From Verrucomicrobiota bacterium (GTDB lineage: Bacteria > Verrucomicrobiota > Verrucomicrobiia > Chthoniobacterales > UBA10450): DNA of 34,402 nt. The position numbers were made by a program, and so were the translations under genes. Position 1 is the stretch's first letter. The number at the start of each line of letters is the position of its first letter. The notes below the pieces were generated by a model. The model searched no databases and was not told where the DNA came from. It worked only from the letters and a program-made list of their open reading frames with translations. This document shows positions 2,792 to 22,875 of this stretch, piece by piece. The stretch spans positions 6,766 to 41,167 of the forward strand of contig QHOX01000168.1 in the NCBI GenBank assembly GCA_003219465.1, written 5' to 3'.

Positions 2792-3391
2792 TTAACCGGT
2801 TAGGTAACGCCGAACCACACCAAGCGCGCCGAGAGCCACCCCGAGTAACGTTACAGTGGCGCCGCCGTCAGGAACAGAACCACCAGTTGGGCCAAAGAGT
2901 ATCCACCCGGAAAGGGCATGCCCTTTGGGCCCAAGCAAAGGAATCGTGATTTGCCCAGTTAAGCCACCGATGTACCAAACTTGAGAAATATCTCTTTGGC
3001 CGTCGTATTTCGCAAACAGGTATGTAAACTTACCGTAGAGGTTAAGGTCTATGGTGATGCCGGTACCGGTTACAGCTCCCGTTGCTGAGGCCGTAGGCAA
3101 GTTAGCGAACATATTCGTTGTGCGCGTGATTTTCTGGATGCCTTCCGCTCCCCCGAAGTCATGGTTTACAGAATCGCCAAGACTCAACTTAATCATAAAG
3201 TTAATATAATCTCTTACGTCGGCGGGACTGGCTGGTGAACCAGGCGTCACGGTGCCAACAACGTGTGTATCCCCCGGAAAGAAGCCCAGAACGGTATTCG
3301 CACTGGCGTTGTGGCTGAATGCGAGCGTAAGGGCACAAAAGGCCGCCGACAATAAGGCCAGTTTGGTAGGGGAGATCTTGTACATGCGCAT
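2792..3391 (-). CDS. VPDGG-type PEP-CTERM secreted protein 1
   Basis: Small exported protein of 199 residues with a signal peptide (MRMYKISPTKLALLSAAF then a hydrophobic run ending near NASA). The C-terminus has the tripartite sorting tail: VPDGG motif, hydrophobic helix (TVTLLGVALGALGVV) and basic end (RRYL). In Verrucomicrobia VPDGG replaces the proteobacterial VPEP motif; exosortases are thought to process such tails at the inner membrane. The central part is rich in Gly, Thr and beta-strand-forming residues, with no recognised domain. The start was chosen from two ATGs (3391, 3385); a longer frame from a TTG at 3448 is ruled out because a sigma-54 promoter sits at 3409-3424. The leader would be only about 7-13 nt and has no Shine-Dalgarno sequence. 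The gene has its own promoter and terminator and is monocistronic. Its partner in the window is the gene at 8695-9342, whose tail is nearly identical. Confidence 0.85.
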   Translation of the reverse strand: MRMYKISPTKLALLSAAFCALTLAFSHNASANTVLGFFPGDTHVVGTVTPGSPASPADVRDYINFMIKLSLGDSVNHDFGGAEGIQKITRTTNMFANLPTASATGAVTGTGITIDLNLYGKFTYLFAKYDGQRDISQVWYIGGLTGQITIPLLGPKGHALSGWILFGPTGGSVPDGGATVTLLGVALGALGVVRRYLTG

Positions 3392-3408: not shown

Positions 3409-3424
3409 AGCAAGCCTTGTGCCA
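3409..3424 (-). promoter_or_regulatory. Sigma-54 (RpoN) promoter of VPDGG gene 1
   Basis: On the minus strand the sequence reads TGGCACAAGGCTTGCT. This is an exact fit to the sigma-54 consensus TGGCAC-N5-TTGCW, with GG and GC separated by the required ten bases. Transcription would start near 3398, just before the ATG codons at 3391 and 3385. PrsR, encoded at 13182-14558, is a sigma-54 activator with a GAFTGA motif and is the obvious candidate regulator. Confidence 0.85.
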
Positions 3425-3751
3425 TAAACTAAGTAAGCTGCAGATCAAATTATAAGTTTCAGTGTCTCAACTCCTTAGGCAGTGAATGAATTCCCGCCGA
3501 TTTACGGTCAAGTCCCCAAAATCGTCAAGTATTCCGACGTTTTACCGGGTTCGTCCACAAAATGCCAGAAGAATGTCGAAGCACCCGCCTTCGTAACGGT
3601 AACACGGCGAGGCAGGCGAATGACGAATGACGCCTGGGCAAATTTTTTTCTTCCCGCGAATCACGCTAATTGACGCGAATCAAGGAAGGGCGCTTTTCCC
3701 AAGCGCCTGAAATCGTTGCCAGTCGGGGAAACCGCGACCCGGGCTCAATCT

Positions 3752-3876
3752 GGGTTGCGGCTGTGCCCGCTTTGCACCTCCCTGTTTTTCGAGTTTTTTG
3801 GCGCCTGCCGGGGGCTGTAGTAGTGCAGCGGCGGCGGGTGTTTTGGCGGATCCCACTTCGGTTGCCGCTGCGCCGC
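3752..3876. repeat. Interspersed GGTTGCGGCTGCGCCGC-like repeats, two copies
   Basis: Copies at 3752-3770 (GGGTTGCGGCTGTGCCCGC) and 3859-3876 (CGGTTGCCGCTGCGCCGC) lie in the same orientation. Two further copies lie at 6031-6050 and 6331-6350. All four are in intergenic DNA flanking the duplicated GT-C genes. They are too short for an insertion sequence and do not code for a recognised protein. Confidence 0.5.
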
Positions 3877-3998
3877 ATTCCTCTTCTGCGTTGAATTCAG
3901 CTCTTTGCCTGCTATTTCCCGACTCAGGCAAAGATGCCCGTCGATCTTCGTGCAAAAACTGCGCTCCGCTGACTGAGCTCGATTCTGGTTACCGAGTC

Positions 3999-5873
3999 TT
4001 ACTTAACCGCTTCTGGGTGTCGCAGTGGAAGGTTTTTTCGATAGCTGGCAATGTCTGATTGAAGGTCTTTTGTCAACGCCGAATTGTCTTGAACAACAGC
4101 CAGTTGGAAGGCTTGTTGAGCTTTGTCGAGGGCTTCAGAAAATCGGCCGGTCTCTGCGTAGCCCGCCGCCAGTATCCGAAGAGCGATTATTGCCTTCTGA
4201 TCATTCCCATGGCCAACGAGCTCGGTTATCTTTTTCGCCAACTCAACGGCCTTGGCGCCATCCCGTAATGACGCGTCTGGAGAAGTAGCAAGCACCCATG
4301 CCAGTTTGGCTTGGGCGTAAATGCCATCTGGGTTGATTTTCAAACTTTCTTTCAAATGCGCGACTGCCTCGTGCACGCGTTCCTTTCGTAAGAGACCTTC
4401 TGCGAGTGCGTCGTGCGCAGGGAAGTAGCGGGCATGAATTTTGATTGCTTCTTCAGAATGAGAAATTGCTTCGTCCACACGATCCGCCCTTAGAAGGACT
4501 TCGGCGAGATTCGCGTGTGCAATATCGTTATTAGAGGTGACAGCGAGTGTGTGATTCCACAGTGTTTCGCTGTCACGCCAATAGGTGTTCTGAACCCAGG
4601 CCAACCACGCGAGAGCGGCAATTACTACTGCGGCTGTAGTCGTAAGGATCTGATGACGGTAGCGCCACGTCACAGACAAGTCTGCTGCAGTCCAGGTCGC
4701 CATCAGATAAAGGCCGATATGCGGGAGATAGGTGTAGCGGTCCGCCCGCGCCTGAGCTCCGACCTGCGCGATTCCAATTATGGGCACAAGCATTCCGATG
4801 TACCAGAACCACCCGGTCACCAAGTATCGATGCCCCTTACCAAAAGCGAGCACAACTGCCGTAACGCCTGCCAAGAATGCGATGGCTGCGGCGACTTTCC
4901 AAAATGCCAGCCGATACTCGGGATGCGGATAAACGAGTGCCAGGTCGATCGGAAAAACCATCTGCCAGATGTAGGCAACGTAGCTCACAAGCGCGTTCTT
5001 GATTCGCCACAAGAGTGGTAAAGATTCGACAGAAACAGTGGCGCGCCTTTGGGCGAACAGCGTGATTATGGAAGACCCGGCAGAGAGAACGAGCAGAGGA
5101 ACCTTTTCCATTACGAGACCGCGAACCACTGACCACCTTGGCTCGCCGTAGCTCCGAGAAGGCGGCTGACGGGTGACCCCTGATCTGCGACTTCTGACTT
5201 GTGACGGCTGATTTCCAACTCTGTTGAGGGGCCAGTAGTCGAGCAAGAGGAGTACGAGCGGGAGTGTTACGAGCGTAGGCTTGGCCATCAGGCCAAGCGC
5301 AAAGACCAACGCGACAATCCCGTAGCGCATGCTTGCTGGCTTGCGGACGTAACAAACATAAGCACCTAGCGTGAGCATGAAAAATACACCGCTAAGCACA
5401 TCCTTGCGTTCTGCAATCCAAGCAACCGACTCCACTCTTAGAGGATGAATAGCAAACACCGCAGCTACAAACGCGCTGCGCCAGAGCGCGCCTGTCATTT
5501 CCCGCAACACAAGGAAAAGCAGGATCACGGCGATCATGTGCAGTAGAACATTAGTAAAGTGGTGTCCCCCTGCATTCAGCCCAAAGAGTTGACAATCCAG
5601 CATGTGCGAGATCCATGTCAGCGGATGCCAGTTCTGCATCCACGAATGTGTGAAAGCCCAGAGAATACCGGTTGAAGTTAAGCCTGTGGTGATCTGGGGA
5701 TTTTGGAAGACGTATCCTTGGTCATCGAAGTTGATGGACGGATGGCGCAACGTCTGTCCGAAGACCAGCCAGGTAATGGCCATCAGAAAAATAACAACAC
5801 CTAGAATGGTCGCACGCGGTGCAGGGGAGTGCGACGATCGGATTTGCTTTGCTTTACGCGATCGGGCGAGCAT
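3999..5873 (-). CDS. GT-C-type membrane glycosyltransferase with TPR tail (TMTC-like), copy A
   Basis: Polytopic membrane protein of 624 residues with about ten hydrophobic segments, then a soluble tail with two to three TPR-like helical repeats (around residues 455-540). The N-terminal loop has FDDQGYVFQNPQI, followed by NWHPLTWISHMLDCQLFG, HHFTNVLLH and HPLRVESVAWIAERKDVLS. These are hallmarks of TMTC-like GT-C proteins, which use lipid-linked sugars on the outer face of the membrane; the paired acidic residues of the first loop are the likely catalytic site. The acceptor is unknown; glycosylation of exported proteins or of the EPS is possible (inference). The start ATG at 5873 is shared with copy B. 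An extra segment of about ten residues near the middle (RQPPSRSYGEPRW) is encoded by an inserted palindromic repeat that copy B lacks. Confidence 0.75.
   Translation of the reverse strand: MLARSRKAKQIRSSHSPAPRATILGVVIFLMAITWLVFGQTLRHPSINFDDQGYVFQNPQITTGLTSTGILWAFTHSWMQNWHPLTWISHMLDCQLFGLNAGGHHFTNVLLHMIAVILLFLVLREMTGALWRSAFVAAVFAIHPLRVESVAWIAERKDVLSGVFFMLTLGAYVCYVRKPASMRYGIVALVFALGLMAKPTLVTLPLVLLLLDYWPLNRVGNQPSQVRSRRSGVTRQPPSRSYGEPRWSVVRGLVMEKVPLLVLSAGSSIITLFAQRRATVSVESLPLLWRIKNALVSYVAYIWQMVFPIDLALVYPHPEYRLAFWKVAAAIAFLAGVTAVVLAFGKGHRYLVTGWFWYIGMLVPIIGIAQVGAQARADRYTYLPHIGLYLMATWTAADLSVTWRYRHQILTTTAAVVIAALAWLAWVQNTYWRDSETLWNHTLAVTSNNDIAHANLAEVLLRADRVDEAISHSEEAIKIHARYFPAHDALAEGLLRKERVHEAVAHLKESLKINPDGIYAQAKLAWVLATSPDASLRDGAKAVELAKKITELVGHGNDQKAIIALRILAAGYAETGRFSEALDKAQQAFQLAVVQDNSALTKDLQSDIASYRKNLPLRHPEAVK
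5144..5165. repeat. GTAG-type REP element inside coding sequence
   Basis: A 22-bp palindromic sequence begins CGCCGTAGCTCC and ends GAAGGCGG, with CGCC and GGCG able to pair. A related copy with GGAG in place of GTAG lies at 8425-8446 in intergenic DNA. At this site copy B of the GT-C gene has only heptamer repeats, so the element is an insertion that keeps the reading frame open. GTAG or GGAG heads followed by a hairpin are the known layout of REP sequences mobilised by RAYT transposases. Confidence 0.55.
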
Positions 5874-6451
5874 TGCTTTTCATCTCAAGGAAGGTCCCAT
5901 CCAAAGCGACACGGAGACCTGTCGCACTCCGAAAGCTCCGCGAAAATCCAGCGGAAATTCTCTCCAATTCGCGTTCATTCGCGCCGGGCACGCCGTAGCC
6001 GAGCCGACGCGGGTGGCTTCGCGGGCTCGACTTGGGTTGCCGCTGCGCCGCCCCTGCGTCCTCTGCGCCGCTATGCGTGAAAGTTTTCGCAGCCTTGCGC
6101 AAGTTTCTCGTTCTCCTTGTTCGTCCTCGACTGCTCGCTTTCTTACAGAAGATAACGAAGACAACAAAGACTGTGTCCTGCGACTTCGGAGCTGAGTTTG
6201 TCTGCCTTCTCATAAAGTGGATGCATCGGAAAAAGGTCTACAGAAGACCGCGAGGAAAGCGAAGTTTTGAATTTGCGTTCCGTTGGAATACAAGCCCTTC
6301 CTTGACTTCGTTTCCTTCTGTAGGAACATTGGGTTGCGGCTGCGCCGCCGCTGGGTCCTTTGTGTTGAATCCAATTCGTTGCCTGCTGTTTCCTGATCGG
6401 GCAACGATGATCGTGCAAAAACTGCGCTCTGCTGACTGAGCTCGATTTTGA
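5874..6451. other. Intergenic stretch between the duplicated GT-C genes
   Basis: The part next to copy A (5874-5995) is similar to 8306-8420 upstream of copy B, so the upstream flank was duplicated with the gene. A GTAG-headed palindrome lies at about 5995-6030 (CGAGCC pairing with GGCTCG). GGTTGCGGCTGCGCCGC-like repeats lie at 6031 and 6331. The part from about 6340 to 6451 matches the 3' flank of copy A. I see no gene. Confidence 0.6.
6031..6350. repeat. Further copies of the interspersed GGTTGCGGCTGCGCCGC repeat
   Basis: Copies at about 6031-6050 and 6331-6350 in the same orientation as those at 3752 and 3859. They flank the duplicated gene unit and could have served as recombination points for the duplication. 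Confidence 0.5.
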
Positions 6452-8305
6452 TTACCGAGTCTTATTTACCGCTTCTGGGTCTCGCAGCGGAATGTTTCTT
6501 CGATAGCTGGCAATGTTTGATTGAAGGTCTTTTGTCAGAGCGAAGTTATCTTGAGCCATGGCGAGTTGCAAAGCTTGTTGAGCTGTCGCGATAGCTTCAG
6601 GGAATCGGCCGCTCTCTGCGTAGCCCGCCGCAAGTGTTCGAAGAGCGATTATTGCCTTCTCATCATTTGCCGGGCCAGCGCGCTCGAGTACTTTTTTCGC
6701 CAAGTAAATGGCCCTGGCGCCATCCCGCAATGACGCATCCGGAGAAGTGGCAAGCACCCACGCCAGGTTGGCCTGGGCACTCAGGTCATGTGGCTTGATT
6801 TTCACAGTTTCTTTCCAATGCCCAACTGCCTCCTCCACACGCCCCCTTCGGAAGAGACCGAGGGCCAATGTATCGTGCGCATTTCCGTCGCTGGGGTGAA
6901 TCCTTAATGCTTCTTCGGAATGAGAAATTGCTTCATCGATGCGATCCTCCCTCAGAAGGACTTCGGCGAGATTCGCATGTGCGACATCGTTATGTGCGGT
7001 AACGGCGAGCGTGTGAGTCCAGAGTGTTTCGCTGTCACGCCAATAGGTGTTCTGAATCCAAGCCAACCACGCGAGAGCGGCAATTACTGCTGCGGCGGTA
7101 GCCGCAAGGATTTGACGGCGGTAGCGCCACGCCACAGACAAATCTGCGATGGTCCAAGTCGCCATCAGGTAAAGGCCGATCTGCGGGAGGTAGGTGTAAC
7201 GGTCCGCTCGCGCTTGAGCGCCGACCTGCACGATTCCGATTACGGGCACAAGCATTGCGACGTACCAGAACCACCCGGTAACCAAATATCGACGCCTTTT
7301 GCGGAAAGCCAGCACAACTGCCGTGACGCCTGCCAAGAATGCGATGGCTGTGGCGACTTTCCAAAACGACAGCCCATATCCGGGATGCGGATAAACGAGT
7401 GCCAAGCGGATTGGACAAATCATTTGCCAGATATAGGCAACATAGCTCACAAGCGCGTTCCTGATTCGCCACAAGAGGGGTAGAGACTCGATGAAACTGG
7501 CGGCGTTCCTTTGGACGAAGAGTGTGATTATAGAAGATCCAGCAGAGAGAACGAGCAAAGGTATCTTTTCCCTTACCAGACCACGAACCACTGACCGCTG
7601 ACCGCTGACCCCTCCTCTGCGATTTCTGACTTCTGCCGTCTGATTTCCAACTCTGTTGAGGGGCCAGTAGTCGAGCAAGAGGAGTACGAGCGGAAGTGTT
7701 ACGAGCATCGGCTTGGCCATGAGGCCAAGCGCGAAGACCAACACGACAATCACATAACGCATGCTTGCTGGCTTCCGGACGTAACGGACATAAGCACCTA
7801 GCGTGAGCATGAAAAATACACCGCTGAGCACATCCTTGCGTTCTGCAATCCACGCAACGGACTCCACTCTTAGGGGGTGAATAGCAAACACCGCAGCTAC
7901 AAACGCGCTGCGCCAGAGCGCGCCTGTCATTTCCCACAACACAAAAAAAAGCAGGATCACAGCGATCATGTGCAGTAGAACATTAGTAAAGTGGTGTCCC
8001 CCTGCATTCAGCCCAAAGAGTTGACAATCCAGCATGTGCGAGATCGAGGTAAGCGGATGCCAATTCTCCATATGCGAATGTGTGAAAGCCCAGAGAATAC
8101 CGGTTGAAGTTAAGCCTGCGGTGATCTGGGGATTTTGGAAGACGTATCCTTGGTCATCGAAGTTGATGGACGGATGGCGCAGCGTCTGTCCGAAGACCAG
8201 CCAGGTAATGGCCATCAGAAAAATAGAAACACCTAGAATGGTCGCACGCGGTGCAGGGGAGTGCGACGATCGGATTTGCTTTGCTTTATGGGAGGGGGCA
8301 AGCAT
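6452..8305 (-). CDS. GT-C-type membrane glycosyltransferase with TPR tail (TMTC-like), copy B
   Basis: A 617-residue paralogue of the gene at 3999-5873, in the same orientation and clearly similar along its whole length. It has the same first-loop FDDQGYVFQNPQI, the same NWHPLT, HHFTNVLLH and HPLRVESVAWIAERKDVLS motifs, about ten membrane segments and a C-terminal TPR region. Differences cluster in the central hydrophilic loop and the TPR tail, where a second TPR unit (HPSDGNAHDTLALGLFRRGR) differs from copy A. Such divergence could shift acceptor specificity (inference). In the central loop a CTGACCG heptamer is repeated about three times at 7591-7610 within the coding sequence. The start is the ATG at 8305. 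The gene appears intact, so both copies are probably expressed. No dedicated promoter was recognised. Confidence 0.75.
   Translation of the reverse strand: MLAPSHKAKQIRSSHSPAPRATILGVSIFLMAITWLVFGQTLRHPSINFDDQGYVFQNPQITAGLTSTGILWAFTHSHMENWHPLTSISHMLDCQLFGLNAGGHHFTNVLLHMIAVILLFFVLWEMTGALWRSAFVAAVFAIHPLRVESVAWIAERKDVLSGVFFMLTLGAYVRYVRKPASMRYVIVVLVFALGLMAKPMLVTLPLVLLLLDYWPLNRVGNQTAEVRNRRGGVSGQRSVVRGLVREKIPLLVLSAGSSIITLFVQRNAASFIESLPLLWRIRNALVSYVAYIWQMICPIRLALVYPHPGYGLSFWKVATAIAFLAGVTAVVLAFRKRRRYLVTGWFWYVAMLVPVIGIVQVGAQARADRYTYLPQIGLYLMATWTIADLSVAWRYRRQILAATAAAVIAALAWLAWIQNTYWRDSETLWTHTLAVTAHNDVAHANLAEVLLREDRIDEAISHSEEALRIHPSDGNAHDTLALGLFRRGRVEEAVGHWKETVKIKPHDLSAQANLAWVLATSPDASLRDGARAIYLAKKVLERAGPANDEKAIIALRTLAAGYAESGRFPEAIATAQQALQLAMAQDNFALTKDLQSNIASYRRNIPLRDPEAVNKTR
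7591..7610. repeat. Heptamer tandem repeat in GT-C copy B
   Basis: CTGACCG repeated nearly three times on the plus strand inside the coding region. The unit is seven bases, so gain or loss of one unit would shift the frame. Copy A has a degenerate version interrupted by the REP element. Confidence 0.6.
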
Positions 8306-8424
8306 TGCTTTTCATCCCAGGGAAGGGTCCCATCCAAAAGGCCACGGAGACGTGTCGCACTGCGAAAACTCCGCGACAATCGAGCGGAAATTCTCTCCAA
8401 TTCGCATTCATTCGCATCTTGCCG

Positions 8425-8446
8425 CGCCGGAGCTTTACGAAGGCGG
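8425..8446. repeat. GGAG-type REP element
   Basis: A 22-bp palindrome of the form CGCC-GGAGCTTTACGAA-GGCG, homologous to the copy at 5144-5165 embedded in the GT-C copy A gene. It is intergenic here. Confidence 0.5.
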
Positions 8447-8621
8447 GTGATTCGCGGGAAGACACGAGAGACACGACTGAATCAAACGCAGAGGACACAG
8501 AGATTATCGGCAGACGAAACTCCAAAAAATAACGGCAGCGGACGATCTGCTACTTTGTCATTAGGCCGTTATTTCGTCATTCGTGCTTCGACATTCTTGT
8601 CTTTGTGCCTTGGGTACAAGA

Positions 8622-8651
8622 AAAGTGGCCGTCCCGAGGAACGGCCACTTT
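8622..8651 (-). terminator. Rho-independent terminator of the second VPDGG gene
   Basis: An 11-bp perfect stem, AAAGTGGCCGT pairing with ACGGCCACTTT, with an 8-base loop, lies about 44 bp after the stop codon at 8695. On the minus strand it is followed by a T-rich TTTTCTTGT-type tract. It is similar in sequence to the terminator at 2703-2735. Confidence 0.8.
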
Positions 8652-8694
8652 ATCAGCTAAACTTTTTTTAAGCGAGGTCGCGAGCACTCGACAT

Positions 8695-9342
8695 TTAACC
8701 CGCAAGATAGCGCCGTGCTACACCGAGCAGACCGAGCGCAGCGCCCAGCAACATCACTGTCGCTCCGCCATCAGGAACCCCGGCGGTTCCGTTCCCGGCT
8801 GCGAAACCGGTTGAGATGCTGCTGTTTCCTATAGCAAAGATGTGAGCCGCTGCTAGCCAGCCCCCATTGTTCCCTGTCGTGAGGACCAGGACGCTCATGG
8901 CGTTTGCCCAACTGCCGCTCGTAAGGGTGAGGGTGAAGGTTACAGAAGTCACCGCACTTGCAAAACCATCATGGTTATTGGTTGTTTGATTGAACGTTCC
9001 AAATCCGTCGACATTACCGCTTCCACCATCGCTGAAAGAGGTGGATCCGTTGCCCCCGGTCCATGAAAAGTTGCCAATTGTCCACCCAGCCCCGTTCACA
9101 TTGACATTAGCGGACGAGCCATCTCCAATAAGAAAACCTGAGTAGGCCGTGAATGTGACGGTGGCGCTGGTGGCGCTGGGGCCCGCCGTCGTGATACTGA
9201 CGTTGGCATAAGGGCCGGAGAACCCGGAGATAGCACTGTTGCCAACGTTGAGGTCAAAGCTGTATGTGTCGGCTTTGGCTTGTTGAAAGCCAAGACCAGC
9301 GATGGCGATCAACGCTGTTGCGAGGTATTTGATTTTATTCAT
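8695..9342 (-). CDS. VPDGG-type PEP-CTERM secreted protein 2
   Basis: Exported protein of 215 residues. The start is the ATG at 9342, preceded by AAAGGA eight bases upstream. The signal peptide is MNKIKYLATALIAIAGLGF followed by a cleavage region near QQAKADT. The mature part is rich in Ser, Thr, Gly and Asn with alternating hydrophobic strands, typical of PEP-CTERM surface proteins, and has no catalytic motif that I recognise. The tail reads VPDGGATVMLLGAALGLLGV followed by ARRYL, nearly the same as in the gene at 2792-3391. A sigma-54 promoter lies 53-71 bp upstream and a strong terminator downstream, so it is a separate transcript from prsT. Its position immediately downstream of the prsT-prsR-prsK genes supports its being a target of that regulatory system. 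Confidence 0.88.
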   Translation of the reverse strand: MNKIKYLATALIAIAGLGFQQAKADTYSFDLNVGNSAISGFSGPYANVSITTAGPSATSATVTFTAYSGFLIGDGSSANVNVNGAGWTIGNFSWTGGNGSTSFSDGGSGNVDGFGTFNQTTNNHDGFASAVTSVTFTLTLTSGSWANAMSVLVLTTGNNGGWLAAAHIFAIGNSSISTGFAAGNGTAGVPDGGATVMLLGAALGLLGVARRYLAG

Positions 9343-9394
9343 GTTATTTATTCCTTTAATCGGTGTAGGGTTTGACTGCATTCGCGTTAACTTG

Positions 9395-9413
9395 AAAGCA
9401 AGCTGCTTGCCAA
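9395..9413 (-). promoter_or_regulatory. Sigma-54 (RpoN) promoter of VPDGG gene 2
   Basis: The minus strand reads TTGGCAAGCAGCTTGCTTT. It fits TTGGCAC-G-N4-TTGCW with one mismatch (A for the final C of GGCAC), and the GG and GC dinucleotides are exactly ten bases apart. Transcription would start near 9386, giving a leader of about 44 nt that contains the AAAGGA ribosome-binding site. It matches the promoter at 3409-3424 of the other VPDGG gene. Confidence 0.85.
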
Positions 9414-9768
9414 ATCGGTGGAGCTCCTGTTGTTCAATTTGTGTTTTTGTTCTAATATCCTGTTTGTAAAAGACTTACGTTTTTTAAAAATTTTGGAATC
9501 TCTCATTCGCGGGAGTAAACAACGAGGGAAAGAGTCGTAAAGCTAGCCGACGGACAGGCCCGCACTGGGAGCGACGGAAAGCCATAACAGCCACGATCAA
9601 AGGCAATTACGATTGACAAGAGAAAACGTATGGACTCTCGACGATTTGGTCCCGTAGATGCCGATTTCAATGGCTGCTACCGCACACAATCCGGGGCGGC
9701 CGATCCCTGTGAGCGCAATCCTAAAGCAGGGTGACAAATGGGCGTCCGTTTGGCGTTGTTTTCTGATG

Positions 9769-9949: not shown

Positions 9950-12900
9950 TCACTCACGCTGGAGATCTGCGAGGGCACGTTTTGCCTCGGTCGCGAACGG
10001 CTCCTGAAGACCGGCGATCAAAGCTTGATTGAGCGCTCCACGCGCTTCGGTCTTTTGTCTCGCTTGGAGTTGAGACATTCCCAGATAAAAAAGAGAATCG
10101 GCGTTGAGCGGCCGTTTCCGAGCGCTTTCCCGCAATAACTGGATGGCGCGCGGGTATTCTTTTTTCTCGTAACTCAATCGTCCAAGAAGGTCGGACAGCT
10201 CAAGGTCGTCCGGCAGCGTCGTGCGCGCCTTTGTAGCGAGGTCATAGGCGGCAGCGACCGTCGCCGAGTCCTGAGCGTACAACGCGGCGAGGCGTTTCTG
10301 CGCGGGCGCGAAATCGGGGAACCGGCGCAGGATGTCCTTGTAGGTTTCGGTTGCCGGTTTGATCTGACCGCGCTGCATGTCCAGCGCGGCATGCGCCATG
10401 AGCGCGGGCACGTATTCGGGATTCGATTTCAATTCCGTTTGCACCTCCGCTTCCGCGGCTACGAGGCCGCTCGGATTCCCGTCCATGGTTGTCAACGCCA
10501 GAAATTTTTTGGCGTCACCAGCTTGGGGAAAGTTTGGATCGGTCGTCAGAGCTTTTTGCATGTGGTCGCGGGCCTCATTCACTTTGCCCATGCTATAAGC
10601 GGTCCAAGCCAGATCGCGCAGAAGGGCGGGATCGTTTTGGCGCTGGCGCGCGGCTTCCTGCAAAAGACTGTAAGCCCAGGTGAAATTGCCGCTCTCGTAC
10701 GCCACTTTTCCCGCAAGGGCGGCGATCTGGGGATCGGCTGGCGCCAGCTCGCGCGCTTTCTTTGCGTACGCGAGCGCTTTCTCCTTGTTCTGGAGCGGCC
10801 CGGCATAGAGCTGGGCGAGCTTGGTTACGACGAAGATCAACTTGGGATTCACGCTTAACGCTTGCTCAAGCGCCGCGGCCGCCTTGTCTGCTACGCCTTG
10901 TTTTTCGTAAGCTTCTCCCAAGCGCATTTGGACGATGACATCGTTAGGCTGCTCTTTGGCCACGGCTTCGAGTTGAGAGACTGGCAAGCCCGCGCCCTCG
11001 AGCAAGGCCAGACGGCGGTTGCTCTCGTCCTTGTGTGGGAAATCTTTGGCGCCGCCAACGGCTTTTTTAAGGGCGACCCTGGCAAGGTCCGTCTGGCCCA
11101 TCATGTAGGCGGCCATGCCGACGTGAAATTGAACTTCAGGGTTATCGGCGGCTTTTTGAGCGCTCTCCTGGAGAATGGGGAGCGCTTGCTGATAATCGCC
11201 GCGTTTATAGAGAACCCAGCCAAAAGTATCGCCGACGGAAGCGTCCTGCCCCTGCAACTGACGGGCTTTACTGGCCAGCTCGTAAGCTTTGTCGAGGTTG
11301 TTCAGGTGCTCGGTGTAAAGATAAGCGAGATTGTTTAAGGCGGGAACGAAGTTCGGCTGGGTAGCGAGCAGTTTCTCATAGGTATCCCCGGCCTTCGGGT
11401 AATCCTTCATCCGGTCATAAACGAGCGCCAGGGTCATCAGCGTTGGCGTGTTGTTTGCATCCTTGGCGAGCAGCGCCTGCAATTGATTGGCTGCCTCCGG
11501 CAGTTTGTTCCTGGCAAGATAACTCTGGGCCAGCAAATCGTATGCGCCGGCGGCAAGATTCGGATCGAGTTGGATCGCCCGTTGAAGCTCTGCCTCGGCC
11601 AAGTCCCATTTTCCTTCCGCGGCCAGGATTTTGCCTTCAAAATAATGTTCAATCGTCGGGTTGGGCGTTTTTTGGAACTGACTCCGTACCCGCTGCCGGG
11701 CAGCGTCGAAATGCTTGTCCAGCAAATCCAGCTCGATGAGCTGATCGACCGGAAACGGGTTATTCGGGGTGAGTTGTGAAGCCCTTTCAAATGCCTGACG
11801 GGCTTCATCATTTCTCTTGGCCTGGCGATAGGTCAGGCCAAGCGCTATCGCGAGCTGTGGATCGTTCGGCGTAAGCTTGGCCTGGTTTTCAAGGACCGCG
11901 GCGGCATCGTCAAACCGCTCAAGTGAGCCATAAGCGCCAGCCAGCGCCAATGCAGCGTTATTTAGATCCGGACGTTTTCGAAGCAAGCGGTTCAGCGGTT
12001 CGATCACTTTGTCGCCATGACCGGTGGCCAGATTGACCTGGGCGAGCAGCAGAACGGCATCGTCGTAATCCGGATTAATTGAGACGGCCTGGTCCAGCGC
12101 CAGCGTCGCCTGATTCATGTTATTGTTTGCGAGATAGGCGCGTGCCAATTTATATTTGAGCAAGGGCACGTTCGGATAGGTCTGATCGAGTCGCTCGAAA
12201 ACTTCGGCGGCTTTTTTCGAGTCGCCCTTTGCTACAAGCACATCGCCTTGCAGTCTGCACCCCTCGAGGTAGTCCGCGTCGCGCCCAAAAACATTTTCAA
12301 GGAGCGAAAGGGCCTCGTCGTATTTCTTGTCCTTATAGGCAACCTCGGCCAGCCAGATCCAGCCTGGGAGATAGTCCGGCGCCTGCTTGGTCATCTCCGT
12401 GGCGACCTTTCTCACCTCGTCGGCGTCACCGGAGTGCCACTTGAACTCCGCGTATTTCACACGCTCGATGGACCGAACCGGCGCGAGGTCTGCCGCTTTC
12501 TTGAATTCTTCGCCGGCTTCTTTCAGGTCTTTCTGGAACAGATGCAAATTTGCCAGCGCCAGGTGCGCCTCGGATGACTTGGGATCGGCAGCGAGCGCCT
12601 GCTGGAGTGCGTTGCCCGCCGCAGCCAAATCGCCCTTGGTGAAAAATAGATTTGCCGAGGCGAGGTGGAAAGCACCGCCGTTCTTTTTAGGGAACTTCTG
12701 GAGTTGTTCCTCGGCGGCCTCGACATTTTCTTTGTTTCGCGCCGCTTCGGTTAAAGCAATAAGGGCATCGCCATCGTCCGGGGCCTGCTCGAGGACCTTG
12801 AGTGCTTCTTTATTTGCGTCGTCGAAGTGTCCCGTAGCCACATAACAACGGGCCAAGCGTGTCCGATTTTCAGCGTTCTTCGGGTCCAGCTCGCTCGCCC

Positions 12901-13162
12901 TTACCAAAAATGCAGCGGCGCGAATGGGCGCTGAATCGTCCTGCCACATTGCTCCGATTCTCTCAAACGCGAGCGCGTTTTGAGGATCGAGCCGGATCAC
13001 GTTCAGGTAAGTCACCTTGGCTTTGTCATAGTCGCCCGCTTTGAAATAACGGTCCGCTTCGCCAAGAAGACGGGCCTTTTTGACTTCCTTGGAGCAGCCG
13101 GCCATGACGGCGGCCGCCAGCGCGAGGGTCACGATTCTGAAGAGGATTTTGGATGTTTGCAT
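9950..13162 (-). CDS. prsT: PEP-CTERM system TPR-repeat lipoprotein PrsT
   Basis: Large periplasmic lipoprotein of about 1,070 residues made almost wholly of tetratricopeptide repeats. The ATG at 13162 gives a clean lipoprotein signal peptide (KILFRIVTLALAAAVMAGC, lipobox MAGC, Cys23). An in-frame ATG at 13195 would overlap prsR and only lengthens the n-region. TPR units such as GDYDKAKVTYLNVIRLDPQN recur throughout, ending in KRALADLQRE. PrsT proteins co-occur with exosortase, PrsK and PrsR in EPS loci; they are thought to scaffold secretion or EPS assembly at the periplasmic face. The exact role is unknown. The gene follows prsR by 19 bp and is probably cotranscribed with it. Length and context fit the family well; individual repeat boundaries were not computed. 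Confidence 0.87.
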   Translation of the reverse strand: MQTSKILFRIVTLALAAAVMAGCSKEVKKARLLGEADRYFKAGDYDKAKVTYLNVIRLDPQNALAFERIGAMWQDDSAPIRAAAFLVRASELDPKNAENRTRLARCYVATGHFDDANKEALKVLEQAPDDGDALIALTEAARNKENVEAAEEQLQKFPKKNGGAFHLASANLFFTKGDLAAAGNALQQALAADPKSSEAHLALANLHLFQKDLKEAGEEFKKAADLAPVRSIERVKYAEFKWHSGDADEVRKVATEMTKQAPDYLPGWIWLAEVAYKDKKYDEALSLLENVFGRDADYLEGCRLQGDVLVAKGDSKKAAEVFERLDQTYPNVPLLKYKLARAYLANNNMNQATLALDQAVSINPDYDDAVLLLAQVNLATGHGDKVIEPLNRLLRKRPDLNNAALALAGAYGSLERFDDAAAVLENQAKLTPNDPQLAIALGLTYRQAKRNDEARQAFERASQLTPNNPFPVDQLIELDLLDKHFDAARQRVRSQFQKTPNPTIEHYFEGKILAAEGKWDLAEAELQRAIQLDPNLAAGAYDLLAQSYLARNKLPEAANQLQALLAKDANNTPTLMTLALVYDRMKDYPKAGDTYEKLLATQPNFVPALNNLAYLYTEHLNNLDKAYELASKARQLQGQDASVGDTFGWVLYKRGDYQQALPILQESAQKAADNPEVQFHVGMAAYMMGQTDLARVALKKAVGGAKDFPHKDESNRRLALLEGAGLPVSQLEAVAKEQPNDVIVQMRLGEAYEKQGVADKAAAALEQALSVNPKLIFVVTKLAQLYAGPLQNKEKALAYAKKARELAPADPQIAALAGKVAYESGNFTWAYSLLQEAARQRQNDPALLRDLAWTAYSMGKVNEARDHMQKALTTDPNFPQAGDAKKFLALTTMDGNPSGLVAAEAEVQTELKSNPEYVPALMAHAALDMQRGQIKPATETYKDILRRFPDFAPAQKRLAALYAQDSATVAAAYDLATKARTTLPDDLELSDLLGRLSYEKKEYPRAIQLLRESARKRPLNADSLFYLGMSQLQARQKTEARGALNQALIAGLQEPFATEAKRALADLQRE

Positions 13163-13181
13163 TTGCTTGCTGATATTGATC

Positions 13182-14558
13182 TTAATGTCCTGCATCTGCC
13201 CGCTCTTTGGCAATGCCAAGTTTGTCCATGAGCTCGTAAAGGGTCGGCCGGCTGATCCCAAGATCAGCAGCTGCGGCAGTAATTTTCCCGGAATGTCGCT
13301 TCAGCGCTTGCTGGATCATGTCGCGTTCCACTTGCTCTCGCGCTTGTTTTAGCGTCCTTGCAGACGAACCCGATACGCCGTCACGTTCATCCAGCTCGAG
13401 ATCCTTTGCGGCCACTCGGGAGCCATCCGCCATGATGACGCCGCGTTTTACTCGGTTTTGCAGTTCGCGGACATTGCCTGGCCAGGAATAATGAGTCATT
13501 GCACGCAGCGCGTCGGGCGCGAACACCACGTTTCCGCGTCCGCTTTGGGCGCCATACCTTTGCAGAAACTCGCGCGCCAAAAATACGACGTCTTCGCCTC
13601 GCTCACGAAGTGGCAGAAGGCGGAGCGTAACAACGGCAATACGAAAATATAAATCCTCGCGGAATTTTCCGCTTTCGACCAATTGTTTTAGGTCAGCATT
13701 GGTCGCGGCAACGAGGCGCGTGTCGACTTGGATTTCCTGCCTTCCACCCACTCGCTGGAAGCGCTGTTCCTGAAGAAACCGGAGCAGCTTCACCTGAATG
13801 GCTGGAGGAAGCTCGCCAATCTCATCCAGAAACAGCGTGCCGCCACTGGCTGTTTCCAGCAGACCTTTACGCTGGATGTGCGCCCCGGTGAACGCGCCTT
13901 TTTCGTGACCGAACAGTTCGCTTTCCAACAGATTCTCAGGAATGGCGTTGCAGTTAATGGCGACAAAAGGGCCATCCTTGCGCCCGCTGCGGCGGTGAAC
14001 TGCGGCTGCCGCCATCTCTTTACCAGTGCCGCTCTCGCCCAGCAAGAGCACCGAAACATTGGTCCCGGCGACCTTGCGAATAAAAGAAAAGACTGACTGC
14101 ATTTGTGGGCTGGTGCCGAGCATGTCCTCAAATACTTCCGATCGTTGGCTCTGTTGTAACTGGCGATATTCTTTCTCGAGGTCCACCACGTGGATACACC
14201 GGCGAAGGAGTAGCTTTAGTGTGTCCATCTCCACTGGCTTGCACAAAAAATCGTAAGCGCCCGCGCCAACCGCCTGGATTGCATTTTGTTTTTCGCTCTG
14301 TCCGGAAACAACGATCACCTTGGCCGAGCGATCGATTGCGAGTATGTCGGATAACGCTGTCATTCCTTCGTCGCACTCGTTAGGCCGAGGCGGAAGGCCC
14401 AAATCAAGCAGCGTCGCTACGGGCGAATTTGCCTCATAAGCTTCAAGCGCACCTCTGCGATCTTCCGCGAAGCACACATCGTAATCCTGGCTCAGCGCCC
14501 ATTTCATCTGGGTGCCGATCGCCTCATCGTCATCAACAATCAGCAATTTCGCTTTCAT
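13182..14558 (-). CDS. prsR: PEP-CTERM-box response regulator PrsR, sigma-54 activator
   Basis: NtrC-class regulator of 458 residues. The receiver domain covers residues 1-120, with acidic pocket DDD at 9-11, phosphoacceptor Asp52 (LLDLGLPP) and KP at 107-108. The AAA+ domain has Walker A GESGTGKE (174-181), the sigma-54 contact loop GAFTGA (221-226) and Walker B LFLDEI. The Fis-type helix-turn-helix is at the C-terminus ([20 protein letters not shown]). It should be phosphorylated by PrsK and then open RpoN promoters. The start ATG overlaps the prsK stop as ATGA, indicating translational coupling. The sigma-54 promoters at 3409-3424 and 9395-9413 are its likely local targets; that link is inferred from motif and proximity. 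All key residues for phosphorylation, ATP hydrolysis and sigma-54 contact are present. Confidence 0.93.
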
Positions 14559-16654
14559 GCCGTCTGGTGATTGAGAGGCAACATCACTCGGAAAGTCGTG
14601 CCGACAGCGGGCTCGCTATCGACTGTAATTCGCCCCCGATGCGCTTCGACAATCATCTTGGATTGAAACATCCCTATGCCCAGTCCTTTCTTCTTTGTAC
14701 TGTGAAAGGGACGGAAAAGTGACGACTTCAGGAACGCCTGGCTCATTCCGCACCCATTGTCGCTGATCGAAACGACCGCCCAGTTATCGTTTTGCGTGGT
14801 CTCAATTCTAATCTCCCCTTTGGGGCCGACAGCGTCGCGGGCATTCAGAAGCAAATTGATGATTACACTGCCGAATTGATCGCGATCGAGCCTCAGCTTT
14901 GGCTGCAGAACAAGCTGTTTCGTCACCTTTATATTCGCTGTGCCATTTAAGGCCTTGAGCGCGTCATCAACGACCGAATTAACGTCCACTTCGGCGAGAT
15001 TGAGCTCGAACTGCCTTAAAGCAGTCAGGCGATTGATGACTGCATTAATGCGATCTGCCGTTTCTCCCATCCCGCGCAAAACGTCTTGTCGGAAAAGCGG
15101 ATCATCAAAATGGACGGGTAGATTTTGAAGCGTTAGACTCAGCGTCGAGGCGGCGTTTTTTAGGTCGTGTACGAAGAACGCAGACATCGCCTGAAACGCT
15201 TCCAGTTGTCTTCCCCGCGCGATCTCATCTGTGAGCCGAAGGTTCAGCAGACCGACAGCAATCTGGTCGCCCATGCACTTCAGCAGATCCAACTCTTCAA
15301 TCGTGTAGGGCGTGCCGCCGACGCGATCTGCCACGATGAGAACCCCCATACAGTGATTCCCAGCGCATAACGGCACACAAACCGGGTTCCCTCCCGTGCG
15401 AAACTGACTGAAACTGATTTGTCTCAGGGCCTCGGCATAATCGCCTTTGGCCTTTTCCAAATCAAAAGGCTTGGTAAACATGCGAATGCCCGCGAAATTT
15501 TGGTCCAGCTTTGGAAGCATGTCGGTGGCCTCTCGTTCTGATCTGCAGGTGGATGCTGCAAACGTCAGATGGTCTTGTTCATCAAGCAGCCAGATTGAAA
15601 CCGAAAGAACGTTGAACGTCTCAGAGATCAATTTCGGCGCTGCCGCGCATAGCCCGGACTGATCGAATACATTGGACATGGATTGCGTCACCCGCGTCCA
15701 TATCTGCCGGAAATCATACTGCGGTCTTTTAAAATGGCGGCTGACAATGCGATGGATCTTTTGGCGGATTCGATTCGAGAGCAACAGCATGGCCAGCAAT
15801 GCAAAGGCCATGAGCACGACCAGCGCTTGGAACTGGAACGCGCCCGCTTTCCCGGTTCGCGCTACCACCTGAGCAAGAACACCTACGACGAAAAGATACG
15901 CTCCAGCCAAAACAAATGTCAGCGATGTGCGTAAGACAGCATGGGAGGGATAAACATCGATTTCGCCAAAACCGCTTCGAACAAAAGCTATCACAATCAA
16001 TGCGTATCCGATCAGAAGCGCAACCGTGTCCACATCACTCAGGACCAGGACGTCCGCGGAAAAAAGCAGGGCCTGACTGAGAGTATAAATTCTGGCTCCG
16101 AACACAATGCCCAAGCCAATAACGAGAAATTTGATTCTCCATTGCATTGTGCCGACTGCTGATCGAAAAGTTTTTTCCAGGTTCATCAGAATCACGACCG
16201 CGGCAACGAGCTGAAACCCATAGAGTATTTTGGCCGCTGCATTGGAACGGACCCACCAGTCTGCGCCTGACTCCGTGTACGGAGAAGCAGGCACCAGTTG
16301 GTCCCGGAAAACCAGGGACATCCCAATTGGAATTACGAGCGCCGCGAGGACAAGAAACCAAGCCCTCGCTGGTAACGGGCGAGCGCTCCCCCGCGAATAC
16401 GTAAGGCTAAAGCAAACCCAGACGCCTGGCACGAATGATTTCGTTACAAGGGTGAGCGTTCCCCAAAACGCCGCGCTTTCGGGATTCACCGCCTCGCGGC
16501 ATATCGCGCCGAATAAACTTTCCAACCCGAAAACCAACATGCCAACCGAGAAACACCAGGTCGCAAGTGAGCGCCGCTTCCCCCACGGAGCGGCCGCGGC
16601 GAAAGCAAAACTGAAGGTCGCGGCGGCCAAAGCTAAAATCGTGTTAAGATTCAC
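14555..16654 (-). CDS. prsK: PEP-CTERM system histidine kinase PrsK
   Basis: Sensor kinase of 699 residues, partner of PrsR. The N-terminal third is a membrane sensor with about eight hydrophobic segments. A GAF-like domain follows (roughly 330-470, including VCVPLCAGNHCMGVLIVADR). The phosphoacceptor is His496 in AFFVHDLKNAAS. The ATPase has the N box NLLLNARDAV, the G1 box SDNGCGM and the G2 region KKGLGIGMFQSKMIVEAHRG. The order membrane-GAF-HisKA-HATPase and the length fit PrsK. The start is a GTG at 16654 with AGGAG seven bases upstream, one of the best ribosome-binding sites in the window. The 294-bp gap upstream (16655-16948) separates it from the exosortase gene and probably contains the promoter of the prsK-prsR-prsT operon, though I found no confident boxes. 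The signal sensed is unknown. Confidence 0.92.
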   Translation of the reverse strand: MNLNTILALAAATFSFAFAAAAPWGKRRSLATWCFSVGMLVFGLESLFGAICREAVNPESAAFWGTLTLVTKSFVPGVWVCFSLTYSRGSARPLPARAWFLVLAALVIPIGMSLVFRDQLVPASPYTESGADWWVRSNAAAKILYGFQLVAAVVILMNLEKTFRSAVGTMQWRIKFLVIGLGIVFGARIYTLSQALLFSADVLVLSDVDTVALLIGYALIVIAFVRSGFGEIDVYPSHAVLRTSLTFVLAGAYLFVVGVLAQVVARTGKAGAFQFQALVVLMAFALLAMLLLSNRIRQKIHRIVSRHFKRPQYDFRQIWTRVTQSMSNVFDQSGLCAAAPKLISETFNVLSVSIWLLDEQDHLTFAASTCRSEREATDMLPKLDQNFAGIRMFTKPFDLEKAKGDYAEALRQISFSQFRTGGNPVCVPLCAGNHCMGVLIVADRVGGTPYTIEELDLLKCMGDQIAVGLLNLRLTDEIARGRQLEAFQAMSAFFVHDLKNAASTLSLTLQNLPVHFDDPLFRQDVLRGMGETADRINAVINRLTALRQFELNLAEVDVNSVVDDALKALNGTANIKVTKQLVLQPKLRLDRDQFGSVIINLLLNARDAVGPKGEIRIETTQNDNWAVVSISDNGCGMSQAFLKSSLFRPFHSTKKKGLGIGMFQSKMIVEAHRGRITVDSEPAVGTTFRVMLPLNHQTA

Positions 16655-16948: not shown

Positions 16949-17905
16949 CTATTTCGATTGCGGCGCCCGTGCGTCTCCCTTACGCAGCAACCACAACACA
17001 AGAAAAAATGGAATCAGCGAAAGCACAAAGAACAGCGGACCACCGCGTCGATGGATTACACTGTTAATCATCTGCGGGCCTAGCTTCACGCAAAGAAGGC
17101 CGATCACCAGAATGCGAAATCCGTTGCGTAGAATGGCGAGCGGAATGACGAAGGCGACCAGCGCAAGACGTCGCCATGGCGTCCTCAAAAATAAGTTCGC
17201 GGCAAGGATGCTGGTGATGAAAAGCACCCAGCTTGAGCGGATCCCGCTGCATGCCTGTGCAACTTCGATCGTGATGTTTGGGAGTTGAAAAACAAGGCCT
17301 CCCCGCAGAAACGGCGTGCCGCTAAGGTGAAAGAGGAGATCGGCTACTTCGGCCGAGGCATATTTGGATGCCGTTTCGAGGGCGTCCGCCATTGCGTCCG
17401 GCATAGGCACCATGAAGATAAGAAAGCCTAGTGGAAAAGCGGCTGCTCGAATCCATTGGCGACCGAGAAAGAAGAATCCTCCCGCCGCAAGGCAACAAAG
17501 AAAAGAGAAGGTCAACAGCGCAAGGTAATCATTATCGCCCGCAGTTCGCTTGGCGAAATGCAACCAGTAACCAGCGATGAGAACGCCGAGACCGGCAGCC
17601 AGCACGATGATTGTCAGCAAGACGTCTACAGCATAATTCTTCGGTAATTGATCACGCCGGGAATAGAGCAGGTAGGCTGAAACGAACGGAACCAGCAGAA
17701 TGTATGAGAAGAGCTGGCTCGAGGCTGCGTAATTTACCAGTGCCAGAAGGGGGTGGGCGAAAAGTGTTACCAGCGCAATCGCAAAACACACGCCGCTCCA
17801 AAGCCGCCACGTATTTCGGTGAACCGGCGAGGCAGGTCCCGGGAGCTTCTCTTTTTGCACGGGGATAATGTCGCGGGCGAGAGCTTCGTTTCGTGTCGTA
17901 GGCAT
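16949..17905 (-). CDS. Exosortase (archaeosortase/exosortase family transpeptidase)
   Basis: Polytopic inner-membrane protein of 318 residues, about eight membrane segments. It carries the three conserved catalytic positions of the family: Cys219 in EVAQACSGIRSS, Arg264 in LRNGFRI and His285 in NSVIHRRGGPLFF. Exosortases cleave PEP-CTERM-like tails and probably transfer the protein to a cell-surface acceptor. The expected local substrates are the VPDGG proteins at 2792-3391 and 8695-9342. The start was taken at the ATG 17905; a longer frame begins at a TTG (18031) inside the upstream beta-barrel gene, and its extra residues are not membrane-like. It follows the beta-barrel gene by about 95 bp in the same orientation. 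I cannot assign a numbered exosortase subtype from sequence alone. Confidence 0.92.
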   Translation of the reverse strand: MPTTRNEALARDIIPVQKEKLPGPASPVHRNTWRLWSGVCFAIALVTLFAHPLLALVNYAASSQLFSYILLVPFVSAYLLYSRRDQLPKNYAVDVLLTIIVLAAGLGVLIAGYWLHFAKRTAGDNDYLALLTFSFLCCLAAGGFFFLGRQWIRAAAFPLGFLIFMVPMPDAMADALETASKYASAEVADLLFHLSGTPFLRGGLVFQLPNITIEVAQACSGIRSSWVLFITSILAANLFLRTPWRRLALVAFVIPLAILRNGFRILVIGLLCVKLGPQMINSVIHRRGGPLFFVLSLIPFFLVLWLLRKGDARAPQSK

Positions 17906-18000
17906 TTCCAAGGGGCTTTCCGAGGCGGCGGCGGAAAACAGTGCAGATCCTTGTGCGGGAGATCCCGCCGCCCTTGGGGAGCTACTACGTTTCTGGATTC

Positions 18001-19251
18001 TCAGAACGTGTAAGTCACTCCGCCGGAGCAACGATTGCGCGAGTAACCCGGTATCGATCCTAGCGAACCCAGCGTAGTATGGCTGTAGTCAAGATTTAGT
18101 GTGAAATGCTTATTGATCGTATAACGGAGGCCGAGGGTAAGATCGAAAGAATCCTGGGTCCCTGTCGAGCCGGTTCCACCTGTATTTTCATCGTGATGAT
18201 AATAAACACCGGTGGTCGAGGTGATCCGGGACGTCAGATCGTAGGTGAGAGTCAGGCCGGTTCGCCAGGTCTTGGTACTCGTCACGCCTGCTGCGGTGGG
18301 GTTTTCGAATCCATAGCTGCTCGTCCAGCTCAGTGAGTGGTTGCTGCTCACGTAATCAACCGCACTTTCAAAGTACGGACTAGCCGTACTCCCTTCGTTT
18401 TCTTGAGAGCGAAATGATTCGCCGGCGCGCGCGTGAACGATTAGGTGCTCGGTTAGATTATGATTGATACCGGCGAGGATGAAATGACTGGTGGAATCGA
18501 GAGGCGCGGTATCGTAAGTGATTGTCTCAAAGCGGTATTCTCCAATCAGTTTAGTGCGGCCCGTCAGGCTAAATTGAAACTCCTCGCTAAAGGTGTTGTT
18601 GATCTGGTCTTGAGAATTTCCGATCGACGCCTGAGGGTAGATAACGCGGTAGAACGTGTAGCTTGTTATCATGGAAAATCGCGTGGACCAGTGATAAGTC
18701 AGCGAAAAAATATCGGTCGTGTAGAAGTGATCGGAAATTACGTTCTCCGGCCCCACATTCGACCTGAAGTTCGGCTGCGACTGGTAAGCAGCGAAGACAC
18801 TGGTGTAAAACGAAAGCCGTGTAGAGAAGTTGTGCGTCAGCGACATGGTAACATTCCCGTCCACGTCGTTCCGGCTAACATTGAAGTACTGGTCAAAGCG
18901 TCCGATACCAAGCAAATAAAACTGCGTCGCCTGTGCGGGTCGATTATAAGTGAGCACAACGTTTTCTCCGAGGAAAAATGAGCCTTTGCCGCTGGGAGTC
19001 AGGGTAGCGTTGTCGTCGTAGCCCATGTCCACGCCCGCCGTCATCCGAATCGGAATAGCCGGCAGCCAGCTGACACCGGCCCCTTCGAACGGCGAAGTCA
19101 GCGCCTCTTGACCCATCGCCTGGAGGGGAGCCATCAAACAAGCAGCGAATAGAACCGCGAGAGCGAGTGAATCAACGCGTTGAGGGAGCTGGTGAATTCG
19201 ACATGGCAAAATCATGTTTGCAAGTCGCGCCCTGCCGGCACGCCAACTCAA
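18001..19251 (-). CDS. Outer-membrane beta-barrel protein of the EPS/exosortase locus
   Basis: Protein of 416 residues with a signal peptide (hydrophobic LALAVLFAACLMAPLQAMGQ) and many alternating aromatic/hydrophobic strands, such as FYLLGIGRFDQYFNVS and LTYHWSTRFSMITSYTFYRV. It ends in Phe (GGVTYTF), the classic signature of outer-membrane beta-barrels recognised by the Bam complex. Proteins of this kind lie in exosortase-linked EPS loci (EpsL/PEP-CTERM-associated barrel families) and are thought to help EPS cross or anchor to the outer membrane. The start ATG overlaps the stop of the export gene as ATGA, so the two are translationally coupled. An internal ATG at 19215 would give a more typical signal peptide. 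Specific function is not proven. Confidence 0.82.
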   Translation of the reverse strand: MSWRAGRARLANMILPCRIHQLPQRVDSLALAVLFAACLMAPLQAMGQEALTSPFEGAGVSWLPAIPIRMTAGVDMGYDDNATLTPSGKGSFFLGENVVLTYNRPAQATQFYLLGIGRFDQYFNVSRNDVDGNVTMSLTHNFSTRLSFYTSVFAAYQSQPNFRSNVGPENVISDHFYTTDIFSLTYHWSTRFSMITSYTFYRVIYPQASIGNSQDQINNTFSEEFQFSLTGRTKLIGEYRFETITYDTAPLDSTSHFILAGINHNLTEHLIVHARAGESFRSQENEGSTASPYFESAVDYVSSNHSLSWTSSYGFENPTAAGVTSTKTWRTGLTLTYDLTSRITSTTGVYYHHDENTGGTGSTGTQDSFDLTLGLRYTINKHFTLNLDYSHTTLGSLGSIPGYSRNRCSGGVTYTF

Positions 19252-22869: not shown

Positions 22870-22875
22870 GAGCGC

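Follow-up and report, generated by a model that had tools for sequence, protein, structure and literature searches.

The stretch of DNA analysed here (the window) is 34,402 nucleotides of a Verrucomicrobiota genome (contig QHOX01000168.1, positions 6,766 to 41,167) and carries two genes for proteins with a VPDGG tail of the VPDSG-CTERM type, together with prsK, prsR, prsT and the gene of an XrtC-like exosortase. The two VPDGG genes are very probably targets of a PrsK/PrsR/RpoN regulon. An earlier note on this DNA had proposed such a regulon, and the proposal is supported by an rpoN gene in the genome, by sigma-54 sites enriched before VPDSG-type genes, by a second element upstream of them, by the GAFTGA motif of PrsR and by scores of PrsR, PrsK and PrsT above their equivalog cut-offs. 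The results also support the view that the regulon is a modified form of a circuit known from Proteobacteria since 2006, with another tag, another exosortase and another phylum. Computation shows directly that the two elements are paired, are concentrated before VPDSG-type genes, keep to preferred spacings and are conserved across the family, that a few cases exist in a second family, and that such a pair stands before a PEP-CTERM gene in Vibrio. PrsR, rather than another activator of the NtrC type, would be the protein that binds the upstream element, and transcription would start at about 3398 and 9386.

Promoters of the sigma-54 (-24/-12) type have the consensus TGGCAC-N5-TTGCW, in which the invariant bases are spaced as GG-N10-GC. 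Scoring over seven positions of this consensus, with GG and GC fixed, gives 7/7 for the minus-strand site at 3424-3409 and 6/7 for that at 9412-9397. Both sites lie where the earlier note had placed them, the first fitting the consensus exactly as it had said, and no further site in the 34 kb window scores above 5/7. Across the draft genome (4.19 Mb in 413 contigs; completeness 88.8%, contamination 5.5%), TGGCA-N6-TTGCW has 29 matches, against 11 for the reversed pattern, and of these all but the two window sites lack an activator-type site (one mismatch allowed) 60-185 base pairs (bp) upstream. The genome has one copy of rpoN (424.7 bits, cut-off 277; open frame of 480 amino acids [aa]), the product of which contains the ARRTVAKYR box. 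The predicted start of transcript 1 lies 7 bases ahead of the ATG (3398-3391, minus strand). Gene 1 shares with several genes of the same kind in its genus a distance of 14-19 bases from the GC to the start codon, so its leader would be about 7 bases long if the usual +1 holds; this suggests that translation of genes of this type is near-leaderless.

Sites of the same kind are found before VPDSG-type genes throughout the family, which was represented by 83 Candidatus Udaeobacter-like genomes. TIGR03778 matched in 38 of these, PrsR scored above its cut-off in 28, and an XrtC-like exosortase was found in 21 at an E value of 1e-40. The sample of VPDSG genes comprised 132 of the 150 among the matches listed (at least 150 in total), of which 99 were usable, having a credible start, a product of 120 aa or more and a clean upstream stretch of 150 bases. 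A sigma-54 site lies within 150 bp upstream in 55 of these 99 genes at 5/7 or better, in 32 at 6/7 or better and in ten at 7/7, whereas dinucleotide shuffles gave 1.16, 0.16 and 0, respectively. At 5/7 or better, the controls yielded 0/99 on the reverse strand, 1/95 in the zone 150-300 bp upstream and 2/131 before other genes of the same stretches. The site precedes 38/52 genes with VPDGG or VPEGG tails, 15/29 with VPDSG tails and 2/18 with other tails, and the median distance from GC to start codon in the 55 family promoters is 35 bases. One could read the sites as chance matches to a loose consensus before genes that are run from housekeeping promoters, given that the consensus is short and already has its 29 matches in 4.19 Mb; set against the approximately 47-fold enrichment over shuffles and the presence of a second element, this is almost certainly wrong.

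The second element emerged from an enumeration of spaced words upstream of 56 distinct sigma-54 promoters. The top word, GTCG-N7-TTAC, was counted in 37 promoters and was absent from three shuffles; it occurs exactly in 41/56 promoters, and in 52/56 if one mismatch is allowed, compared with 0.14 and 3.98 in mononucleotide shuffles and 0 and 4 on the reverse strand. The element may also be written GTCGG-N6-TTACR, the base after TTAC being mostly A or G, and its profile, C-GTCGGAA-N4-TTACR-A-TTT, is an imperfect inverted repeat (TCGGAA/TTACGA), as would be expected of a site for a Fis-type dimer. In the window, such an element precedes promoter 1 by 99 bp and promoter 2 by 124 bp, in agreement with the earlier suggestion of an inverted-repeat site 80-200 bp upstream. 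Among 95 VPDSG genes with 300 bp of upstream sequence, 43 have both elements and 13 have the sigma-54 site only. Some VPDGG promoters elsewhere in the family (L198, on contig C249 of G080, and L196, on contig C377 of G074) have two upstream sites 20 bases apart, or about two helical turns, an arrangement that would suit a PrsR oligomer.

The distance between element and promoter is not uniform: across 51 promoters (60-135 bp), spacings cluster near 77, 88, 100, 113 and 123. The best period is 11.6 bp, with R values of 0.64 for all 51 promoters and 0.60 for 45 cluster representatives, and none of 3000 draws from a smoothed null was as high; at a period of 10.5 the values are 0.48 and 0.43. These spacings bear on the proposal that the VPDGG genes were simply duplicated together with their upstream DNA, the shared boxes having no regulatory function. 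Some genes do have near-identical upstream DNA (those of G013 and G016, for example), and several stand in tandem. Against such shared descent, the boxes are kept while the DNA between them diverges (at 60% ungapped identity, the 51 promoters still form 45 clusters), spacings differ by steps of about one helical turn, and the pair is common to different proteins and one non-coding RNA candidate. We consider shared descent without function very improbable.

When the 83 genomes were searched with a strict two-part pattern, 53 rows had spacings of 74-104 and 19 had spacings of 105-135, against 5 and 3, respectively, for the reversed control. Removal of three rows with a common sigma-54 site leaves 69 distinct sites, of which 41 precede a match to a VPDxG-type (or VADGG) tail, some of these being assigned from coordinates alone and a few having gaps in their frames; eight are cut by contig ends, seven precede the RNA candidate and 13 are other, eight of which look like chance. 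The VADGG-tailed genes with a two-part promoter are in G019 and, in another family, G455. In the genome of the window, the strict pattern occurs once, ahead of VPDGG gene 2. The RNA candidate is a 112-nucleotide (nt) block in seven genomes of the sister genus g5 (L184-L190; at L186, positions 1669-1780 of the plus strand) that follows the sigma-54 site at a distance of 11-12 bases in five measured loci and is far more conserved than its flanks. It is strongly folded (z -4.3 for one of the seven sequences), and a search with an RNA model found it in 7/83 genomes, all of a single genus. An Rfam search of the candidate gave sub-threshold matches only, and compensatory changes were seen in 0/39 pairs of the fold, so the case for structure rests on folding energy. 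The block is a candidate small RNA, putatively driven by PrsR and sigma-54.

Outside the family, PrsR was found in 11/387 genomes drawn from the phylum. Ten of these 11 genomes and two plasmid records were searched for the two-part pattern at spacings of 61-91 only, which gave seven matches in five records (reversed control 4) and none in the other seven records. In a second family, matches stand ahead of CTERM genes (3/3 in G369 and 1/1 in G455); those of G419 and G442 resemble chance matches. A plasmid of Vibrio alfacsensis has TGTCGATATATTTTACA, followed after 73 bp by a sigma-54 site and then by a gene with a PEP-CTERM tail (SVPEPGSLGL); prsK, prsR and prsT are on this plasmid as well. The likeness to the proteobacterial PEP-CTERM regulon that the earlier note had drawn is matched by the same two-part promoter before a PEP-CTERM gene.

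In Haft et al. 2006 (PMC1569441), 99/167 PEP-CTERM genes have a two-motif site, consisting of a 17-nt motif 1 ending in TTTACA, a spacer of 62.8 and a sigma-54 motif 2. In that paper, the motif is reported from Proteobacteria only and matches the profile of PrsR, PrsK/PrsR/PrsT belong to the PEP-CTERM/XrtA system, and no Prs genes are listed for Verrucomicrobium spinosum. The system described here has in common with that regulon the PrsR, PrsK and PrsT families, each above its cut-off, and a sigma-54 site before sortable surface genes. As far as the text of that paper and the one Vibrio site allow a comparison, the GTCG-N7-TTAC(R) found here is compatible with motif 1. Unlike in the PEP-CTERM/XrtA system, the cargo is VPDGG-tailed (VPDSG type), the exosortase is XrtC-like and the phylum is Verrucomicrobiota; the spacing also exceeds the published 62.8, exact sites ranging over 76-179 with a mean of 104, with ends measured slightly differently in the two studies. 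The proteobacterial circuit is supported by experiment: pepA of Aquincola tertiaricarbonis is RpoN1-dependent with a mapped start (PMC9850573), and PEP-CTERM genes of Zoogloea resiniphila are reported to be under PrsK/PrsR control (PMC9012009). The present one is predicted from sequence and differs in phylum and sorting tag. Among the matches listed in the open-access literature, no paper was found on the regulation of VPDSG-CTERM genes or on control of sorted surface proteins in such bacteria. A survey of sigma-54 regulons mentions Verrucomicrobiota, its main text being without PEP-CTERM, exosortase or PrsR (PMC12316311), and the terms PEP-CTERM, exosortase and PrsR are absent from PMC3162934.

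PrsR has a receiver domain (PF00072), a sigma-54 activator AAA+ domain (PF00158) in which the GAFTGA named in the earlier note can be read, and a Fis-type helix-turn-helix (HTH; PF02954). The HTH of the window protein is 71-94% identical to those of 18 other sequences from the family and 42-45% identical to those of two Vibrionaceae, both of which keep LGI(S/T)RPTLY. A recent transfer of prsR from Proteobacteria is disfavoured by a tree that follows taxonomy, with the family and family f10 as supported sister clades; having three outside sequences on long branches, this tree bears on recent transfer and not on old transfer. A different reading accepts the sigma-54 promoters as real and has another NtrC-type activator of the genome bind the element, with prsR nearby by chance. 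The genomes have several NtrC-type genes (up to 60 first-look candidates per genome), with paralogs of 31-43% identity, and no PrsR ortholog was seen in six genomes that carry sites as well as VPDSG genes. However, PrsR and composite matches co-occur in 30 good-quality genomes (both in eight, PrsR only in one, match only in five, neither in 16; p 0.0016), as they do in all 83 (18, 10, 16 and 39, respectively; p 0.004). Among the five match-only genomes of good quality, two without a VPDSG match look like chance and one (G078) has a piece of PrsR at a contig end. In addition, the Vibrio plasmid with the same element bears prsK/prsR/prsT, and the proteobacterial motif matched the PrsR profile in the work of Haft et al. 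(PMC1569441). We therefore regard a different activator as unlikely and PrsR as the probable binder.

Several observations weigh against a PrsR/sigma-54 regulon. No sigma-54 site was found before 44/99 usable VPDSG genes, 14 of them VPDGG- or VPEGG-tailed, and of the 95 genes with 300 bp upstream, 30 have neither element and nine have the upstream element alone. Within the window, upstream site 1 reads TTGAC instead of TTTAC. The best spacing period exceeds 10.5 bp, and shared lineage may inflate the phasing; as the composite pattern derives from these very promoters, only matches outside that set are independent. The profile search found no PrsR in ten genomes that have VPDSG genes as well as a composite match. 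Nine of these were rechecked, all but G005, the single composite match of which looks like chance: three have contig-end pieces of PrsR (G060, 86% identity; G078, 81%; G016, 67%), and six (G014, G033, G046, G053, G076 and G077, in bins 59-90% complete) are without PrsR, their best matches being paralogs of 36-43%. VPDSG matches are absent from eight genomes with PrsR, and also from six genomes with a composite match. Finally, 9/12 outside records are without a convincing site at the spacings searched.

The steps by which such a regulon would operate can be outlined. PrsK, a membrane histidine kinase, would sense an envelope or exopolysaccharide signal and phosphorylate PrsR, an NtrC-type activator that would then bind GTCGGAA-N4-TTACR at 3538-3524 and 9551-9537. 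Looping of the DNA would allow the GAFTGA loops of PrsR to meet RNA polymerase-sigma-54 at the two promoters, which ATP hydrolysis would open. The VPDGG proteins would be exported by their signal peptides and, by analogy with PEP-CTERM systems, recognised at the VPDGG tail by the XrtC-like exosortase; once sorted, they would join the cell surface or the exopolysaccharide.

Table 1. Predicted genes and promoter elements of the VPDGG region (window coordinates)
Feature	Position	Strand	Description
VPDGG gene 1	2792..3391	-	199 aa; signal peptide-like start; VPDSG-CTERM tail
Sigma-54 (-24/-12) promoter 1	3409..3424	-	TGGCACAAGGCTTGCT; 7/7 against consensus; predicted transcript start ~3398
Upstream activator site 1 (putative PrsR box)	3524..3538	-	GTCGGAATACTTGAC; one mismatch to GTCG-N7-TTAC; 99 bp before promoter 1
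VPDGG gene 2	8695..9342	-	215 aa; VPDSG-CTERM tail
Sigma-54 promoter 2	9397..9412	-	TGGCAAGCAGCTTGCT; 6/7 against consensus; predicted transcript start ~9386
Upstream activator site 2 (putative PrsR box)	9537..9551	-	GTCGGCTAGCTTTAC; exact core; 124 bp before promoter 2
prsT, tetratricopeptide repeat (TPR) protein	9950..13261	-	TIGR02917 379.1 bits (cut-off 312.2), TPR scores being partly generic; start codon unrefined
prsR	13182..14558	-	TIGR02915 587 bits (curated equivalog cut-off 502.6)
prsK, histidine kinase	14555..16654	-	TIGR02916 381.6 bits (cut-off 300)
XrtC-like exosortase	16949..18031	-	TIGR04151 264.7 bits (below cut-off 300); TIGR02602 108.8 bits (cut-off 105.55)

The main genes of the window are on the minus strand, in the order XrtC-like exosortase, prsK, prsR, prsT, VPDGG gene 2, two genes with transmembrane and TPR regions, and VPDGG gene 1; the gene set also takes in exopolysaccharide genes. 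A search of the window for further two-part sites, for example ahead of prsK or the exosortase gene, found none. The likeliest start codons of the VPDGG genes, chosen by script, are the ATGs at 3391 and 9342 and not the first starts of the open reading frames (ORFs) at 3448 and 9381. The tail of gene 1 scores 33.3 bits against PF18205 (cut-off 25) and 25.4 against TIGR03778 (cut-off 22, scored on the longer ORF); that of gene 2 scores 28.4 against PF18205 and, against TIGR03778, 25.5 in one scan and 21.3, just under the cut-off, in another. The exosortase is named XrtC-like only, because TIGR04151, even though its top match, scores below the curated cut-off, which was reached in 0/83 family genomes. 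In 16 stretches from relatives, prsR adjoins prsT in 15 (L076 has prsT on its other side), and the order XrtC, PrsK, PrsR, PrsT is seen in eight, two of which are the same contig; in the remaining stretches, only part of the region is present or no exosortase was seen. Eight named relatives with related exosortase loci are all metagenome bins (six Verrucomicrobia bacterium, two Candidatus Udaeobacter).

Between the VPDGG genes lie two 81% identical minus-strand genes (3999-5873 and 6452-8305) with a membrane region and TPRs; they may resemble TMTC-like glycosyltransferases and might modify the VPDGG proteins. The minus-strand ORFs at 20141-22096, 22364-22954 and 33760-34335 have no Pfam match, and NCBIfam likewise gave none for the first two. 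Elsewhere in the bin, a 3150-base contig (L211, contig C126 of G000) carries a second prsR, 82% identical to that of the window over aligned columns, which is either a paralog or a further sign of mixed strains. A third VPDSG gene of the bin, with a VPDTG tail (L030, contig C62 of G000), has neither promoter element. Compared with L093, on contig C142 of G016, which belongs to another genus, this gene shows 99.3% identity and the 900 bases ahead of it 99.9%; because of this near-identity, one bin or the other is probably contaminated here, and the gene was dropped as a third native target.

These findings place the putative PrsR binding site at named bases and provide, in the two-part promoter, a computable marker of the regulon that finds exosortase substrates even where the tail differs, as in the VADGG genes. 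Occurrence of the same switch before many genes of the family and before one Vibrio gene suggests that one control circuit has been reused for differently tagged surface proteins. More tentatively, and with the odds somewhat against it, PrsK, PrsR, the box and sigma-54 may form an old self-contained module that has stayed constant across phyla while tag and exosortase were swapped (from PEP/XrtA to VPDSG/XrtC), and that in one sister genus also drives the structured 112-nt regulatory RNA; if so, surface-protein output would be coupled to control at the RNA level. The results suggest, in any case, that a circuit described as proteobacterial serves a different tag and a different enzyme in another phylum.

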